Of a stretch of DNA of 64,000 bases, positions 26,546 through 33,690 are shown piece after piece. How positions within the stretch are numbered: the stretch's first letter is position 1; each line of letters opens with the position of its first letter. Source of the DNA: Senegalimassilia anaerobia JC110 (GTDB taxonomy: Bacteria > Actinomycetota > Coriobacteriia > Coriobacteriales > Eggerthellaceae); the NCBI RefSeq assembly GCF_000236865.1, contig NZ_HE611014.1:1-64000 (forward strand), read 5' to 3'. The position numbers and the translations under genes were made by a program. Under the pieces are notes generated by a model. The model was not told the origin of the DNA and did not search any database. It was given only the letters and a program-made list of their open reading frames with translations.

Positions 26546-27133
26546 CTAGCCCTCGTACGCCGCCACAAGGCTCTCCAAGAGTTCGGCTGCGATTTCCCTG
26601 ACTTCACGGCCTTCGGAGATTGCCGCGACGGCCGCTCCGTCGACGACGACCCCCACTACATGCGCAGGCATCCCCACGCCCGCATGCTTAAGGATCCGCC
26701 CTACCGCCTGGTCAAGCTGCACGCGACCGTTGCGATACGCCTCGGTAACGTCCTCGGACTCGGATGCGGCAAGCAACTGCATGTAGTGAGCGGCAGGATT
26801 AACGGAATCATCGGGCAGGCTGGCGCTGATGAGCAGGTTGATCAAATGCTTACGGCAATCGGCCTGATCCATGGACTCGGCCGTGGCCGCGGCATTTTCA
26901 GCACGCTCGGCCCAAAGCTGGATGTTGTAACGACCGGCCTCATACAGAAGCTGATTGGTAGATTCGAAATAATATCCAACCGATGAGGATGCGGCCCCCG
27001 CCCATTGCGCAACTTTACGATACGTGACTGCCTTCGGGCCCTGTTCGCGCAAAAGTGCCGCAGCGGCAAGCACAAGCGACGTGCGCGTGATCTGAGCCTT
27101 CAACGATTTAGGGGTTTGATTCGCCTCACTCAC
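26546..27133 (-). CDS. TetR-family transcriptional regulator
   Basis: 195 residues. The N-terminal helix-turn-helix (TRTSLVLAAAALLREQGPKA followed by VTYRKVAQWAGAASSSVGYY) is a standard TetR DNA-binding domain; the remainder is an all-helical ligand and dimer domain. GTG 27133 is chosen because AAGGAG lies 6 nt upstream; the frame is open further but without signals. It follows the first MFS carrier gene across a terminator and is a plausible local regulator of the carrier/amidinotransferase block. Confidence 0.88.
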   Translation of the reverse strand: MSEANQTPKSLKAQITRTSLVLAAAALLREQGPKAVTYRKVAQWAGAASSSVGYYFESTNQLLYEAGRYNIQLWAERAENAAATAESMDQADCRKHLINLLISASLPDDSVNPAAHYMQLLAASESEDVTEAYRNGRVQLDQAVGRILKHAGVGMPAHVVGVVVDGAAVAAISEGREVREIAAELLESLVAAYEG

Positions 27134-27252: not shown

Positions 27253-28602
27253 TTACACCTCGGACAGGTCCTTGCCGGTGTGCTCGTGCGATGCGATCAT
27301 GGCGCCCAGGGCCAGAACGGCGATGAATACCATGTAGTACGCAGGAGCAATCGGGTCGCCCGTGAAGTTGATCAGGGCGAAGGAGATGTAGGAAGCGGAA
27401 CCGCCGAAGATGGCGTTAGCCAGGTTGAAGCTCAACGCGAAGCCGGAGTAACGCACATCGGTCGGGAACGTCTCGCACAGGTAGCTGGAAAGCGTGCCGT
27501 CGTTGATGGTGAGCAGCAGGCACATGACCAGCTCGACCACCAGGATGGTGAAGAAGTCCAGCGTGTTCAGTAGCCAGAACGCGGGGATGGTGAAGATCAC
27601 GAAACCCGCGGCAGCCGCGATGAGCATCTTCTTGCGACCGAACTTGTCGGAGATGCGGCCGGACAGGAAGATGAAGCCGATGTAGACGATCAGCACGATG
27701 GTGGTGATGATGGACGCCTGACCCGGATCGTAGTTCAGCGTAGCCTCAAGGTAGTTCGGCAGGTAGGTCAGAACAGCGTAGAAGCCCACAGCGTTCAGCA
27801 CGCATGCGCCGAAGGAGATGGCCAGCACGCGGAAGTGCTTCTTGAACAGGGTGCGGATCGGCTTGTCTTCGCTCTTCATGCCCTTCTCGGCAAGCTCGGC
27901 CTGCATCTTCGCATACACCGGGGAATCTTCCAGATGCTCGCGGATGTAGTGCGTGATGTAGCCCAGAGGACCAGCCAGCCAGAACGGGATACGCCAGCCC
28001 CAGTTCACCACGAAGTCGGACGAGGCGCCGAACGTGTTAAACATCCAGGTAGCGAACAGGGAGCCCACCAGCAGGCCAACGGCCGTGGAGGCGGGAACCA
28101 TGGAGCAGTAGAAACCACGGTGGTTCTTCGGCGAATACTCGGCAATGAACGTGGCAGCGCCGGCATATTCACCGGAAGCAGAGAAGCTCTGCACCATGCG
28201 CATAAGCAGGAGCAGCAGCGGGGCGCCAACGCCGATTACGGCGTAACCGGGCAGGCAGCCGATAAGGAAGGTGGCGCCGGACATCATGAGGATGGAGATG
28301 GACAGAGCCCATTTGCGGCCCTTCTTATCGCCCATGTTGCCCCAGAAGATGGCACCGAGAGGACGGACCAAGAACGCCAGCGCGAACACGCCGAACGTCA
28401 TCATAGTTGAGACCATTTTGTCTTCGCCCGGGAAGAACACCAAAGCGATGACGGTGGCAAGGTAGGAGTAGCTGGCATAGTCGAACCACTCGATGAAGTT
28501 GCCCAGGAACGAGGAGAACACAACCTTCTTCAGCGTTTTATGCTTTTCAGCCTCGGAAAGTTCGGTTTCGTTCTGAATCGGTCTCGGTTGGTCAGCATTC
28601 AT
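27253..28602 (-). CDS. MFS transporter, metabolite:H+ symporter family (paralogue 1)
   Basis: 449 residues with 12 membrane helices. FLGNFIEWFDYASYSYLATV and GNMGDKKGRKWALSISILMM are signatures of the MHS group (ProP, ShiA, alpha-ketoglutarate permease). GRISDKFGRKKML is the second-half motif. It probably imports a small organic acid or zwitterion with protons. The start codon overlaps the end of a 35-codon upstream ORF by 11 nt. It is closely similar to the next carrier at 28960, so the two arose by duplication. Substrate unknown. Confidence 0.9.
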   Translation of the reverse strand: MNADQPRPIQNETELSEAEKHKTLKKVVFSSFLGNFIEWFDYASYSYLATVIALVFFPGEDKMVSTMMTFGVFALAFLVRPLGAIFWGNMGDKKGRKWALSISILMMSGATFLIGCLPGYAVIGVGAPLLLLLMRMVQSFSASGEYAGAATFIAEYSPKNHRGFYCSMVPASTAVGLLVGSLFATWMFNTFGASSDFVVNWGWRIPFWLAGPLGYITHYIREHLEDSPVYAKMQAELAEKGMKSEDKPIRTLFKKHFRVLAISFGACVLNAVGFYAVLTYLPNYLEATLNYDPGQASIITTIVLIVYIGFIFLSGRISDKFGRKKMLIAAAAGFVIFTIPAFWLLNTLDFFTILVVELVMCLLLTINDGTLSSYLCETFPTDVRYSGFALSFNLANAIFGGSASYISFALINFTGDPIAPAYYMVFIAVLALGAMIASHEHTGKDLSEV

Positions 28603-28699
28603 GATTTTCCCCTAAGAACAGTGCAGCGGCTTTGAGACTGAAACCGACTGCAGCACACGGCAGTTCATCGCCTCCCCTTGAAGCGATGTTGTTTCGCAT
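28592..28699 (-). CDS. 35-residue leader ORF overlapping the MFS carrier 1 start
   Basis: The ORF begins MRNNIASRGGDELPC and ends GENHEC. An optimal AAGGAGG lies just upstream of its ATG. Its stop lies 11 nt inside the carrier gene (ATGAATGCTGA holds both the carrier ATG and the leader TGA). The product matches no family I know. The carrier's own upstream signal (AGGGGA) is weaker, so translational coupling or leader-peptide control is likely. A like arrangement is found at the paralogous gene. Confidence 0.65.
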   Translation of the reverse strand: MRNNIASRGGDELPCAAVGFSLKAAALFLGENHEC

Positions 28700-28715
28700 T
28701 TCAACCTCCTTACCC

Positions 28716-28747
28716 TCTAGGTGGGGCCGAATCCGGCCCCACCTATG
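28716..28747 (-). terminator. GC-rich hairpin upstream of the leader ORF
   Basis: AGGTGGGGCCG and CGGCCCCACCT pair over 11 bp with a 4-nt loop. It is followed in the minus direction by AGAGGGTAAGGAGG rather than a T-run. It could be the 3' end of the upstream carrier transcript or a control hairpin before the leader ribosome binding site. Confidence 0.5.
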
Positions 28748-28797
28748 CACTGGCGGATAAGAAGATGATACCGTGCGCTTATCAATGTTAGCCATTT

Positions 28798-28906
28798 GCA
28801 GGCAAGTTGTTACCTTTCGGCAACGTAGCCCGATGAAGAATCGTCTCAAGTAAACGCGTCGGCAAAACGCGATCCCAAATTAATAATTCTTCAACAACTT
28901 GCCTGC
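28798..28906 (-). ncRNA. Candidate structured RNA element between the two MFS genes
   Basis: GCAGGCAAGTTGTT (28798-28811) and AACAACTTGCCTGC (28893-28906) are exact reverse complements over 14 bp and enclose about 80 nt. Inside, GAAGAAT pairs with ATTCTTC and CGCG-N9-CGCG forms a small hairpin. Read on the minus strand, it lies 54 nt after one carrier stop and about 100 nt before the leader ORF of the next. I match it to no known riboswitch. Confidence 0.45.
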
Positions 28907-28959
28907 TATGACCAGGCGATCGCGGTAGGAGGAGTCCTTAATCGCCTAATCGAACCTCT

Positions 28960-30288
28960 CTAAATCTCGGACAAATCCTTGTTCGAGTGCTCATGCGACA
29001 TGATCATGGCAACCAGCGCTACACAGGAAACCGCAACCATATAGAACGCAGGAGCAAGGGTGGAGCCCGTCGCCGTGATCAGCGACGTGCAGATGAACGA
29101 TGCCGTGCCACCGAACAGCGCGTTAGCCATATTGAAGCTAAGGGCAAAGCCCGAGTAACGCACTTGGGTGGGGAACGTCTCGCTCAAGTAGCTGGAAAGG
29201 GTACCGTCGTTGATGGTGAGGATCAAGCACATAATCAGCTCGACCACCAGGACAGTCACGAAATTCGCAGTGCTCATCAGGATGAACGCCGGAATGGTGA
29301 AGACGATGAAGCACACACATGCGGTGATCAACATCTTCTTGCGACCGAACTTGTCGGACAGATGCCCGCTCGCAAAAATGAAAGCGACGTAGGTTACCAA
29401 CGCGATGGTGGTGATCAACGACGCCTCGTTCTTCGGCATCATGACGGCCGTCTCCAGGTATACCGGAAGGTAGGTAAGCACCACATAGAAGCCAACGGCG
29501 TTCAGCATTGCAGCGCCGATGGAGATGATGAGCTTGCGCAGATGCTTCGTGAACAGGCAGTGAATCGGACGCTCCGGAGCACCGGCGGCGCCAGAAGCCT
29601 CAGCGTCTTTGAGCGCACGCTGCATCGCCTGGTACGTAGGAGAATCCTCAAGCTGGATGTTCACGAAATACGCGCCGATACCCAAAGGACCGGCAAGGAT
29701 GAACGGGATGCGCCAGCCCCACTCGTTCACCGCAGCTTCCGGCATGATGGTGTACATAACAGTCGCAAAAGCGCTGCCGACCAGCAAGCCAATGGCCGTG
29801 GAAGCGGGAACGATAGAGCAATACATGCCACGTTTGTCCGTGGGCGCATACTCGGCCAAGAACGTTGCCGCACCCGCATACTCGCCAGAAGCGGAGAAGC
29901 CCTGGATCATGCGGAGCAGAAGCAGCAAAGCCGGAGCGCAAATGCCCAAGGCAGCATACCCGGGAAGCAAGCCGATGCAGAACGTGGCACCGGCCATCAT
30001 GAAGACCGAAACAGTCAGCGACCATTTACGGCCCTTCTTGTCGCCCATGTTGCCCCAGAAAATAGCACCGATAGGACGAAGCAAGAACGACAAAGCGAAC
30101 ACTGCAAACGTTTGAATCAACGCTAACGCAGGATCATCGTTCGGAAAGAACACTTGCGCGATAACAACCGCGAAGTACGAATACGTGGCATAGTCGAACC
30201 ATTCAATGAAGTTGCAGAAAAATGACGCCGTTGCCACTTTGCGTACGGTCTTGCTCTTTTCCGCGTCGAACCGAGCGTTATCTTTCAT
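28960..30288 (-). CDS. MFS transporter, metabolite:H+ symporter family (paralogue 2)
   Basis: 442 residues with 12 membrane helices; FFCNFIEWFDYATYSYFAVV, GNMGDKKGRKWSLTVSVFMM and GHLSDKFGRKKML match the MHS group and the neighbouring paralogue almost position by position. ATG 30288 is preferred over GTG 30297; an AGGG lies about 8 nt upstream. The start overlaps a 26-codon leader ORF by 11 nt. Compared with paralogue 1 the central loop differs (KDAEASGAAGAPERP), so the substrates may differ. Confidence 0.9.
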   Translation of the reverse strand: MKDNARFDAEKSKTVRKVATASFFCNFIEWFDYATYSYFAVVIAQVFFPNDDPALALIQTFAVFALSFLLRPIGAIFWGNMGDKKGRKWSLTVSVFMMAGATFCIGLLPGYAALGICAPALLLLLRMIQGFSASGEYAGAATFLAEYAPTDKRGMYCSIVPASTAIGLLVGSAFATVMYTIMPEAAVNEWGWRIPFILAGPLGIGAYFVNIQLEDSPTYQAMQRALKDAEASGAAGAPERPIHCLFTKHLRKLIISIGAAMLNAVGFYVVLTYLPVYLETAVMMPKNEASLITTIALVTYVAFIFASGHLSDKFGRKKMLITACVCFIVFTIPAFILMSTANFVTVLVVELIMCLILTINDGTLSSYLSETFPTQVRYSGFALSFNMANALFGGTASFICTSLITATGSTLAPAFYMVAVSCVALVAMIMSHEHSNKDLSEI

Positions 30289-30358
30289 GGAAATCACCCT
30301 GGAACCATTTCAGATCGCTCGAGCACGAACCCAATCCAATAGTATTGAATATCCCCAT
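30278..30358 (-). CDS. 26-residue leader ORF overlapping the MFS carrier 2 start
   Basis: It begins MGIFNTIGLGSCSSD and ends GDFHER. AAGAGGAG precedes its ATG by 6 nt, which is stronger than the carrier's own site. Its TAA lies 11 nt inside the carrier (ATGAAAGATAA). The amino acid sequence is unrelated to the leader before paralogue 1, but the geometry is identical, which supports a coupling function. Confidence 0.6.
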   Translation of the reverse strand: MGIFNTIGLGSCSSDLKWFQGDFHER

Positions 30359-30461
30359 CACAATCTCCTCTTCGAGGGCTCCCCTCCTATGATTTCGCCG
30401 TTTCATAGAGGCCCTCATCAGGCGAAACGCTATCCCTCATGACTTACGTTCCGCTACCGAT

Positions 30462-30508
30462 AAAAAATGGTGGACTGCACCTTCCCTTATATAAGCACAG
30501 TCCACCAT
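30462..30508 (-). terminator. Terminator of the 195-residue unknown gene
   Basis: ATGGTGGACTG and CAGTCCACCAT pair over 11 bp and the minus strand continues TTTTTTA. The loop contains CTTATATAAG, itself a small palindrome. Confidence 0.85.
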
Positions 30509-30517
30509 AATTAGCTA

Positions 30518-31105
30518 TTACCGCAAAACAACGTCCGCGGGAATGTCGTCCTCGTCCATCAGGTCAACCTGAGCACGGCTGGCGCGCATGATGAAGTCAT
30601 GCTTTGCCTTCTGGCCGCCACGGGCGAGCTTCTGCAGCACAACACCCTTCAGGCGAGGATAGTCGTTCAGGCCATACCACGCGAAAGCCGTACCGTTGAC
30701 ATAGCACTCGACGATGCTATGGACGGGAACCGCCACATCACGCTTGGCATCAAGATCCAGATACTCCTGAATCTCGGTTGCGCACACGTCCTTGATGACT
30801 TCAGCGCTGATTTCCAGGTCGTGACCGAGCTGCTTGAGCTGGCGCTCAACCTCGCCCTGATCAGCATGCGGGAAATACGTAACGTCATACGTGACGGCAG
30901 CAACACCGGAAGCCTTGGCAAACGCCAGCAGGTCATCAAGCGCGATGAACTGGACATGCTCCTCCGTACGCTCTTTGATGTCGAGCATTGCGGGGAACCC
31001 GGCGATGCCCTTTGCCTCGAACGCAGCCTTCAGCTGGTCCTCGGTCATTGCGGCTTCAAAGTCAACCTTCGTTGCGATATGGGTTAAGCGATTCGTAACC
31101 TTCAT
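30518..31105 (-). CDS. Protein of unknown function, 195 residues, in the amidinotransferase/carrier block
   Basis: I do not recognise the family. MKVTNRLTHIATKVDFEAAM starts a soluble alpha/beta protein. Motifs of note are CYVNGTAFAWYGLNDYP and KAKHDFIMRASRAQVDLMDE. There is no signal peptide or metal motif. AAAGGAGG precedes ATG 31105. It begins 46 nt after the EamA transporter stop and ends at a strong terminator, so the two form an operon and may act on the same compound. Confidence 0.8.
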   Translation of the reverse strand: MKVTNRLTHIATKVDFEAAMTEDQLKAAFEAKGIAGFPAMLDIKERTEEHVQFIALDDLLAFAKASGVAAVTYDVTYFPHADQGEVERQLKQLGHDLEISAEVIKDVCATEIQEYLDLDAKRDVAVPVHSIVECYVNGTAFAWYGLNDYPRLKGVVLQKLARGGQKAKHDFIMRASRAQVDLMDEDDIPADVVLR

Positions 31106-31151
31106 GACGCAGCCTCCTTTCAAAGGCACCTACGTCCGGCACTAGCAGATG

Positions 31152-32285
31152 CTAGCGCTCCTCCTCCTTGGCAGCCTCTTCGGCGAGGCGTTCAGACAGA
31201 TTCTCAGCAACTTGCTGCTGCTTCTCCATCTTGGAACCCTGGATCATGGCCTTGACGGTCGGGAATGCGCCGCCGCCAACGATCAAGATGATACCGATTG
31301 CAGTGTTGAGCGTAACGGGCTCGCTGAACACAACCAGGCCAATGAACAGAGCGACAGGAACCTCCCAGTAGGCGATGGTGCTGTAGTCCATTGCCGGCAG
31401 GTTGCGGCCAGCGACCAGCAGGCAGCCCAGAGCGATAGGACCGCAAACGATCCACAGCAGCACGGCACCCACCCAGTTGAAGGCGGTGAAGTGAATCTCG
31501 GTAATCCAGTTGGTCTGGCCCGTAGCCATGCCGACAACGTTCATCAGGATAGCGATAACACCTGCACCGATAACGGCGAAAATGAAGTTGTACACACCAC
31601 GTGCGGTGGTGTCAGCATCCTTGCGGTAGCCGTTGAAGAACATGGAAGCGCCGTAGAACACGCCGGACAGCAGACCGAAGATGTCGCCAACCATCTTCTG
31701 CGGGAATTCCGGAGTGGAGGGGGCCAGGTTGAAGTCCAGGCCGAAGACGTTGCCGCCGACGCCGAAGCCGAGGAGGCTCTCGCCGAACAGCATACCAACG
31801 AACACGACGCAGAGGCATACCCACTGCAGCGGGCTCATCGGCTCTTTACGGAAGATACGAGCCAGCAACACGCAGATAACCGGGCCGGTGTAGATGAACA
31901 TAACGGCGTTCGCGACGGTGGTCATCAGCGTAGAGGTGACGTAGCATGCCAGGGACATGCCGATCATCAAGCCACCCAGTGCGATTGCGGGAGTAAGCTT
32001 AAGCTTCTTGAAAGTGGTTACCTTATGGGTGGCAACCATGAGAATCACGAAGAACAGCACACCCATGGCCATGCGACCAAGCGCCATAATTGCGCCGATG
32101 GAGTCGGAGCCGTTCAAACCCTGGGTAGCGTCGAACATGTCGGTACGCGTACCCCAGCGGCTGAACAGCGGCACCAGACCCATGCCCGTTGCAGAAATCA
32201 GCATGAAGATAGTGCCGATTTTGCGATTCATCTGATAGTCTTGAGAGCCATCCCCCTGGCCCTTAGTGTTGATTTCGTCTGCCAT
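31152..32285 (-). CDS. EamA/DMT-superfamily transporter
   Basis: 377 residues with about ten membrane helices arranged as two EamA repeats (ISATGMGLVPLFSRWG in the first half, SGVFYGASMFFNGYRKDADT at the start of the second). DMT carriers export or exchange metabolites such as amino acids. The C-terminal tail is charged (EEAAKEEER). AAGGAGG precedes the ATG. It is cotranscribed with the 195-residue protein and lies downstream of the amidinotransferase gene, separated by a terminator. Substrate unknown; a guanidino compound or amino acid is an inference from neighbours. Confidence 0.87.
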   Translation of the reverse strand: MADEINTKGQGDGSQDYQMNRKIGTIFMLISATGMGLVPLFSRWGTRTDMFDATQGLNGSDSIGAIMALGRMAMGVLFFVILMVATHKVTTFKKLKLTPAIALGGLMIGMSLACYVTSTLMTTVANAVMFIYTGPVICVLLARIFRKEPMSPLQWVCLCVVFVGMLFGESLLGFGVGGNVFGLDFNLAPSTPEFPQKMVGDIFGLLSGVFYGASMFFNGYRKDADTTARGVYNFIFAVIGAGVIAILMNVVGMATGQTNWITEIHFTAFNWVGAVLLWIVCGPIALGCLLVAGRNLPAMDYSTIAYWEVPVALFIGLVVFSEPVTLNTAIGIILIVGGGAFPTVKAMIQGSKMEKQQQVAENLSERLAEEAAKEEER

Positions 32286-32541: not shown

Positions 32542-33690
32542 CTAGTCCTCCCACATCTCCGGGTGGATGAGCGTGCAGTCCTTGACGCGGTTCGGGAAGT
32601 AGTCGAGGCACTCGCCCTCGCGGTAAACGTCAGCCGTGGAGCAGTGCAGGCCGCCACCGAACGGATAGGCGTCGCGCAGGTCAACGGGGATGACGTTCAT
32701 GCCGAGCTGGTCCATCTGCTCCTGCTCGTGGACCTCAGAAGCCTCAACGATGACCGTGGAGGGATCCAGAACCAGGCAGTTCATGGACAGCCACACGGAG
32801 CTGTAGCACAGCGCGGGCGGCTCGTCATGAGCAGGCTGAGCGGCGTCGACGATCTGCCAATCGTTGGCCTCGAAGATCTCCTTCTGGCCCTCGGCAGGAT
32901 GACGATGCGGGTTGTTGATGATCAGGCCCGGACGCAGCGGCACGAAGGTGGCGTCGATGTGGATCGGGTACGGGTCGCCCGGGAAGTTCATGGCATGGAT
33001 GCGATACTCGGGATAGTAGCGCTGGAACCACTCCATGGCGGTGCGGTTGGTGGTCAGACCATGCTGGATGAAGATATCCTTGCCCATGCGCATGAGGTCA
33101 GCGGCGTCCCACATCGGCTCGACTTCGGTGGTCACGAAGTCCTTGTTGGCGGTACGGACGAGGCGCTCTTCCAGGGTGATCTTCTCGTCGTAGTAGTTGT
33201 GCTTGTAGGAAGCGTCGGTCAGACGAGGACGGGGAGCCTGGGTCCACAGGAACTCGGGATCCTCATCGAAGTACTGCTTCATGAGCGGCCAGTAGGCCAG
33301 GTACTCGAAGTAACGGCAGCGGAAGGAGTTGGCGGAAGCCATGATCTCGTTGCCGACGGTCAGCAGGATGTCGCGCGGAGGCATGCAAGTCATCATGGAA
33401 TCGTTGCGGAAGTCCGGCGTACCGATGGCCTGGTTCCACTGCAGAGGGGTCGGGCGGTCGACGACGACACCGCGCTCCTCAACGGCCTTGACCAGGTTCT
33501 CGAGGCACTCGTTGCCACGCTCGACGGTGCGCAGCGGGCGCAGGCCCCACATGCCGCGCATCTCGGAGTCAACCGGCACCTTCTCAGAGGTTGCGGGCTC
33601 CTCGGGCGGGATCATGGAGTTATCGCAGCGGCCAACGATGACGCGCTTCAACGGATCCCAGTCGTTCCAAGAGTTGACAATCTTCGCCAT
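32542..33690 (-). CDS. Glycine amidinotransferase family enzyme
   Basis: 382 residues. The sequence follows vertebrate arginine:glycine amidinotransferase throughout its catalytic half: DIFIQHGLTTNRTAMEWFQR, FPGDPYPIHIDATFVPLRPG with catalytic His244, VWLSMNCLVLD, and GGGLHCSTADVYR with nucleophile Cys350. The family moves the amidino group of arginine to an amine, classically glycine, giving guanidinoacetate and ornithine. Bacterial homologues use varied acceptors, so glycine is not proven. AAAGGAG precedes ATG 33690. It is a single gene with a good promoter and a cluster of upstream TTGTGCAAA motifs. Confidence 0.9.
   Translation of the reverse strand: MAKIVNSWNDWDPLKRVIVGRCDNSMIPPEEPATSEKVPVDSEMRGMWGLRPLRTVERGNECLENLVKAVEERGVVVDRPTPLQWNQAIGTPDFRNDSMMTCMPPRDILLTVGNEIMASANSFRCRYFEYLAYWPLMKQYFDEDPEFLWTQAPRPRLTDASYKHNYYDEKITLEERLVRTANKDFVTTEVEPMWDAADLMRMGKDIFIQHGLTTNRTAMEWFQRYYPEYRIHAMNFPGDPYPIHIDATFVPLRPGLIINNPHRHPAEGQKEIFEANDWQIVDAAQPAHDEPPALCYSSVWLSMNCLVLDPSTVIVEASEVHEQEQMDQLGMNVIPVDLRDAYPFGGGLHCSTADVYREGECLDYFPNRVKDCTLIHPEMWED

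Follow-up and report, generated by a model that had tools for sequence, protein, structure and literature searches.

Overlapping leader peptides with a conserved C-terminus precede paralogous MHS-like carriers in Eggerthellaceae

We analyzed a 64,000-nt window of the Senegalimassilia anaerobia JC110 genome (contig NZ_HE611014.1, positions 1 to 64,000), which encompasses two carriers, about 64% identical to each other, that resemble the metabolite:H+ symporters (MHS, ProP-like) of the major facilitator superfamily (MFS). Each carrier starts inside a short upstream open reading frame (ORF), hereafter the leader (Table 1). Both leaders stop 11 nt into the carrier gene (junction sequences ATGAATGCTGA for the first pair and ATGAAAGATAA for the second) and stand in the identical frame relative to it. 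An earlier reading of this DNA from its letters alone (the sequence-only reading) had reported the coordinates, frames and overlaps of these small ORFs and had judged their ribosome binding sites to be stronger than those of the carriers; we confirmed all of this on the minus strand, using the duplex energies of the Shine-Dalgarno (SD) sequences with the anti-SD. The TIGR00883 profile matches both carriers over their full length, at 368.8 and 375.4 bits, below the curated cut-off of 443.45 bits, so that they are MHS-like relatives and not curated members of that family.

Table 1. Features of the two leader-carrier loci and their surroundings, in window coordinates
Feature	Position	Strand	Details
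Carrier 1	28602-27253	minus	MHS/ProP-like MFS metabolite:H+ symporter, 449 aa; TIGR00883 3e-110, below cut-off
Carrier 2	30288-28960	minus	MHS/ProP-like symporter, paralogue of carrier 1, 442 aa
Leader ORF 1	28699-28592	minus	MRNNIASRGGDELPCAAVGFSLKAAALFLGENHEC, 35 aa; 11 nt overlap with carrier 1
Leader ORF 2	30358-30278	minus	MGIFNTIGLGSCSSDLKWFQGDFHER, 26 aa; 11 nt overlap with carrier 2
C-terminal motif region of leader 1	28592-28633	minus	KAAALFLGENHEC, up to the stop
SD of leader 1	28705-28711	minus	AAGGAGG; anti-SD duplex -12.3 kcal/mol
SD of leader 2	30365-30371	minus	AGAGGAG; anti-SD duplex -9.4 kcal/mol
SD of carrier 1	28609-28613	minus	AGGGG, within leader 1 codons Leu-Gly; -6.4 kcal/mol
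SD of carrier 2	30294-30300	minus	AGGGTGA, within leader 2; -6.9 kcal/mol
Inverted repeat, GC-rich	28720-28743	minus	GGTGGGGCCG-gatt-CGGCCCCACC, directly 5' of leader 1 SD; by eye
Possible structured RNA, leader 2 5' untranslated region	30373-30427	minus	Two stems and possible pseudoknot UUCGCC/GGCGAA
TetR-family regulator	26546-27133	minus	BetI-like
196-aa protein	30518-31108	minus	Conserved neighbor
EamA-type carrier	31152-32285	minus	
Arginine:glycine amidinotransferase-like enzyme	32542-33690	minus	Best PDB match 1jdx, E 1e-78

We estimated how often such leaders arise by chance by shuffling the upstream DNA and asking for ORFs of 24 or more codons that had an SD of -9 or lower and a stop at +1 to +20. 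These requirements were satisfied in 85 of 2000 shuffles (4.3%) for carrier 1 and 49 of 2000 (2.5%) for carrier 2, and at such rates a single genome provides weak to modest evidence for either leader; it is conservation of sequence among relatives that settles their reality. Carrier homologues were gathered from the genomes of 61 relatives, together with named genome contigs and further stretches, a carrier start was assigned to each homologue, and the overlapping frames were then read; genus names given below for loci from the relatives' genomes are presumptive. Many Eggerthellaceae carriers proved to have such an upstream ORF, giving 46 distinct overlapping peptides in the same relative frame, 19 of which are exactly 26 residues long, with an overlap of 11 nt in most cases. 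Thus, as expected of an upstream ORF (uORF), a short ORF preceded by an SD is conserved 5' of the main gene. The layout is also that of coupling by overlap, in that no more than about 20 nt separate the upstream stop from the downstream start and the downstream SD is the weaker one (in 38 of the 46 distinct leaders).

The peptides share a C-terminus close to [N/D]EA[A/V]xFLGD[Y/F]HE, as illustrated by the ends NEAVHFLGDYHEC (L169), NEAAPFLGDYHEC (L036), DEAVHFLGDYHES (L018), DKAANDLGDYHEI (L013) and NEAANFLGDYHGI (L154), and their N-termini vary, a distribution of constraint characteristic of ribosome-arrest leaders. The window peptides KAAALFLGENHEC (leader 1) and DLKWFQGDFHER fit this family as diverged members, with leader 1 of the same-genus genome G002 reading KAAAKLLGDYHEC; the comparison of the 46 leaders thus overturns the claim of the sequence-only reading that the two peptides are unrelated. 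Part of Adlercreutzia carries shorter variants, of 16 residues (ending PEGAGDSHE, with an 8 nt overlap) and of 20 residues (ending GKDLGDFHGI). Stop codons vary among the leaders, with TGA, TAA and TAG all represented.

In the overlapping leaders, the Leu-Gly codons of the motif double as the carrier SD and the His-Glu codons hold the carrier ATG, a coincidence that could make part of the motif a by-product of the carrier's own start signals. We therefore compared codon differences among reading frames. In the core of 26 overlapping leaders, the leader frame has a synonymous share of 31% among its differences, compared with 5% and 10% for the two remaining frames. In 10 leaders from creatininase operons, where the motif and the carrier ATG are separated, the share rises to 47% versus 5% and 16%, a value that none of 500 column shuffles reached, and third-position differences stand at 0.56 versus 0.22. 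Here, Leu is encoded by CTG, CTC or CTT, Gly by GGA or GGC, and His mostly by CAC, with the residues unchanged. In these leaders the Glu codon of the motif sits 18-20 nt from the carrier ATG (20 in L201, by eye), and the stop can fall anywhere from about -10 to +20 relative to the carrier start; hence it is the motif, not the stop, that holds its place. This pattern amounts to codon-level purifying selection in the leader frame, the signature of a translated uORF, and both translation in that frame and selection on the peptide are well supported.

The motif is also found outside free leaders. In Adlercreutzia and Eggerthella genomes, a creatininase-family enzyme itself ends with a motif tail (ENEFAGTGDFHEN and HEFSGEGDYHEV, each up to the stop), and the creatininase of other genera ends without it (AIRAEFA). 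The gene of the motif-ended creatininase extends 11 nt into the following one, which encodes either an MHS carrier (L190-L195) or a BCCT carrier (L199, L200, L202 and L203); Pfam matches at the tail loci are 4e-48 for creatininase and 7e-112 for BCCT. In two further genomes the tail is retained, with CAC as the His codon, in the absence of any overlap, the BCCT gene beginning about 55 nt downstream. These comparisons provide good support for a motif that is portable between a free leader and an enzyme tail, as well as for its association with transporters. The creatininase tails, together with the leaders set apart from the start, rule out the simplest nucleotide-level reading, in which the motif is nothing but an SD followed by an ATG. 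As a separate observation, the start of a cytosine/purine-type permease (PF02133) at L233 is overlapped over 11 nt by a 152-codon open frame that ends in GDFHEW, which may be a chance occurrence.

The distribution of the motif is narrow. The pattern GD[YF]H[ED]x-stop gave 39 matches in 140 genomes of the family versus 2 for the reversed control, and almost all readable matches lie at the carrier genes. A longer pattern, searched in 250 genomes of the class, was found in Eggerthellaceae and once elsewhere, at L249, which we discounted as a wider occurrence given that it reads as an unrelated frame and no transporter ORF follows it. Nor did we find wholly different genes sharing the motif, as the first pattern search returned mostly MHS carriers or unrelated matches within genes. 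In a quick carrier tree, which contains several long branches and for which the automatic leader labels were corrected by hand in seven rows, leaders are seen in the clades of carrier 1 and carrier 2 alike, with about 12 changes needed, and are absent from the homologues in Slackia, Hugonella, Bifidobacterium and Actinomyces. Presence in both clades and absence elsewhere implies that the leader is older than the window paralogues but not universal; it is a lineage-limited trait with losses. The sequence-only reading had proposed a conserved regulatory design of the leader-peptide or coupling kind, retained after gene duplication while the peptide drifts, and had named orthologues devoid of an upstream ORF as a finding that would speak against it. 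The overlap and the strong leader SD do persist in many Eggerthellaceae and in both carrier clades, but the peptide does not drift freely, retention is restricted to a lineage and interrupted by losses, and orthologues of the named kind do exist in the four genera above. Together with a lost leader-1 ATG in a same-genus genome considered below, they bear out in part the counter-evidence that the reading itself had specified.

The genomic context bears on the probable substrate. In the window, the gene order is amidinotransferase-like enzyme, EamA carrier, 196-aa protein, leader and carrier 2, leader and carrier 1, and BetI-like TetR regulator, with an arginine deiminase and an arginine-ornithine antiporter-like gene farther along. 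Carriers of this type are widely accompanied by an amidinotransferase or a creatininase, outside the family too. Because these neighboring enzymes act on guanidino compounds, the context suggests that the carriers import a substrate of guanidino or betaine-like type, for instance creatine or guanidinoacetate. Colonic creatine has been reported to be lower in mice colonized with Eggerthella lenta (PMC11149096). The 196-aa protein has no Pfam or NCBIfam match, and it is kept beside the amidinotransferase- or creatininase-associated carriers in many Eggerthellaceae.

Taken at the level of sequence comparison, these observations lead us to favor, with moderate confidence, a leader peptide acting in cis, with its nascent C-terminus keeping the ribosome positioned over the carrier's start region, combined with translational coupling. 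Ribosomes would enter at the strong SD of the leader and, after translating some 26 codons, arrive at the carrier SD and AUG within the last leader codons, so that initiation at the weak carrier site would either depend on these incoming, terminating ribosomes or compete with them. This initiation would be tuned by the conserved nascent C-terminus EA[AV]xFLGD[YF]HE, which most probably would respond to a guanidino compound imported by the carriers by slowing or arresting the ribosome; a paused ribosome could mask the carrier start or, if pausing helps reinitiation, open it. We infer the arrest, the ligand and the sign of regulation alike. Slowing by the nascent chain fits the data because the motif is fixed in place over or just before the transporter SD and the N-terminus and stop are variable. 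More tentatively, and as a possibility to which we would assign only limited weight, GD[YF]HE might be a modular nascent-chain sensor for a guanidino metabolite (for example, creatine or guanidinoacetate), carried either on a leader of 16-36 residues or on the tail of a catabolic enzyme, with the paused ribosome covering the start of the next transporter (MHS or BCCT).

Several observations weigh against regulation by a nascent peptide. Many orthologues, some of them in the same gene neighborhood (Slackia), have no leader, and the same-genus genome G001 no longer has the ATG of leader 1, although a frame opening with GTG would still encode a 24-residue peptide with the motif. Within the overlapping set considered by itself, frame specificity of the six codons 5' of the SD is only marginal, with 36 of 500 shuffles scoring as high. 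Folding of the leader mRNA gives z-scores near 0, with the carrier SD partly open and not clearly sequestered, and no simple RNA switch is apparent. The use of all three stop codons argues against release-factor-specific arrest, which we accordingly disfavor. Sequestration of the carrier SD by leader mRNA is likewise unsupported in view of the folding results, and a programmed +1 frameshift producing a leader-carrier fusion was rejected for the family, as several leaders end 9-10 nt before the carrier ATG.

The most serious rival to nascent-chain control is plain translational coupling, in which the leader merely delivers terminating ribosomes to a weak start and its sequence is irrelevant, the motif being a by-product of SD, spacer and ATG. 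The 11 nt overlap, the stop beside the start, the strong leader SD and the weak carrier SD form a textbook layout for such coupling, and the Leu-Gly and His-Glu codons coincide with the carrier SD and ATG. However, the motif is kept away from the start, and at the creatininase C-terminus, despite synonymous changes that destroy the ATG and alter the SD codons, and NEA[AV] lies outside both signals; we therefore regard plain coupling as unlikely. The presence of a single C-terminal motif on both a free peptide and an enzyme could instead point to action in trans, with the peptide or tail serving as a miniprotein or C-terminal tag, whether by binding to the transporter or to a partner or by targeting the product for turnover. 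This we find improbable, given that a transporter start always follows the motif directly, in most cases at a fixed distance, that two unrelated transporter families (MHS and BCCT) are found downstream, and that the motif is sometimes followed by 1-11 extra residues, which a C-terminal tag would not easily tolerate.

Transcription attenuation, with leader translation selecting a terminator or an antiterminator, gains some plausibility from hairpins 5' of several leaders and from a terminator-like hairpin, AGCGGATC-TTTCGG-GATCCGCT followed by a T-run, located about 12 nt past the stop of a creatininase ending GDFHEN and before the BCCT gene (L196 and L198; G161/G162), possibly an attenuation variant. 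In the window and at most loci, however, the leader overlaps the carrier and leaves no room for a terminator between them, nor are there any regulatory codon runs of the kind seen in trp- and his-type attenuators, making this explanation very improbable. As for fortuitous ORFs in a high-GC genome, single loci do match the chance requirements in 2-4% of shuffles, yet conservation, frame-specific substitutions and transfer of the motif across genera reduce this to a negligible probability and refute it for the family as a whole.

Among characterized regulators are TnaC of the E. coli tna operon and other short peptides of its kind that arrest ribosomes. TnaC works through Rho-dependent transcription termination. 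It resembles the leaders described here in being a peptide of about two dozen residues, with conserved functional residues, encoded 5' of transport and catabolism genes (PMC10941005), but the sequences are unrelated, the GDYHE leaders overlap the regulated gene, and the arrest that we propose for them is presumptive. The CruR/DUF2946 uORF of Bordetella likewise heads a transporter operon and has a conserved C-terminal arrest motif; it differs in being a larger protein, which senses copper through CXXC and stalls on RAPP, and the abstract on it mentions neither an 11 nt overlap nor an enzyme-fused form (PMC9426467). The odc1 motif of alpha-proteobacteria includes a highly conserved short uORF peptide in the 5' region of a metabolite gene, differing in its unrelated 11-aa peptide, a UUG start two nt before the main start, and a defined RNA structure (PMC8632094). 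Classical coupling through overlapping ORFs shares the upstream stop beside a downstream start with a weak SD, but peptide conservation, seen in the GDYHE leaders, is not expected there. None of the known systems found in the literature searched has the GDYHE leader sequence or an enzyme-borne form, and our search found no account of Eggerthella leader peptides or of these carriers, so that a translational switch for uptake of creatine-like compounds, if this is what the leaders form, looks undescribed. If correct, this reading would add a family of leader peptides not yet described, found in a common gut lineage and controlling likely importers of creatine-like host metabolites. It would also provide a rare instance of an arrest-type motif that can move between a free leader and the C-terminal end of a functional enzyme. 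The comparative data set is ready, the peptide is short enough for in vitro arrest tests, and the candidate ligands are few.

Finally, we considered RNA structure and transcription. Rfam 15 covariance models detected no known riboswitch or RNA family over the leader region. The hairpin 5' of the leader 1 SD is retained with different bases in G001 and G002. One of the stems in the 5' untranslated region of leader 2 shows two compensatory pairs in a comparison of only three same-genus sequences, with no Rfam match, and the region is possibly a structured regulatory RNA. Farther upstream, a strong hairpin (GGTGGACTGTGC and GTGCAGTCCACC) followed by TTTTTT lies 3' of the gene for the 196-aa protein (window 30460-30510, minus strand) and is present genus-wide. 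It is likely the terminator of that gene, in which case leader 2 and carrier 2 are probably under their own promoter. The leader is probably the first ORF of the transcript, since at many loci its start is preceded, some 46-52 nt away, by a -10-like hexamer.

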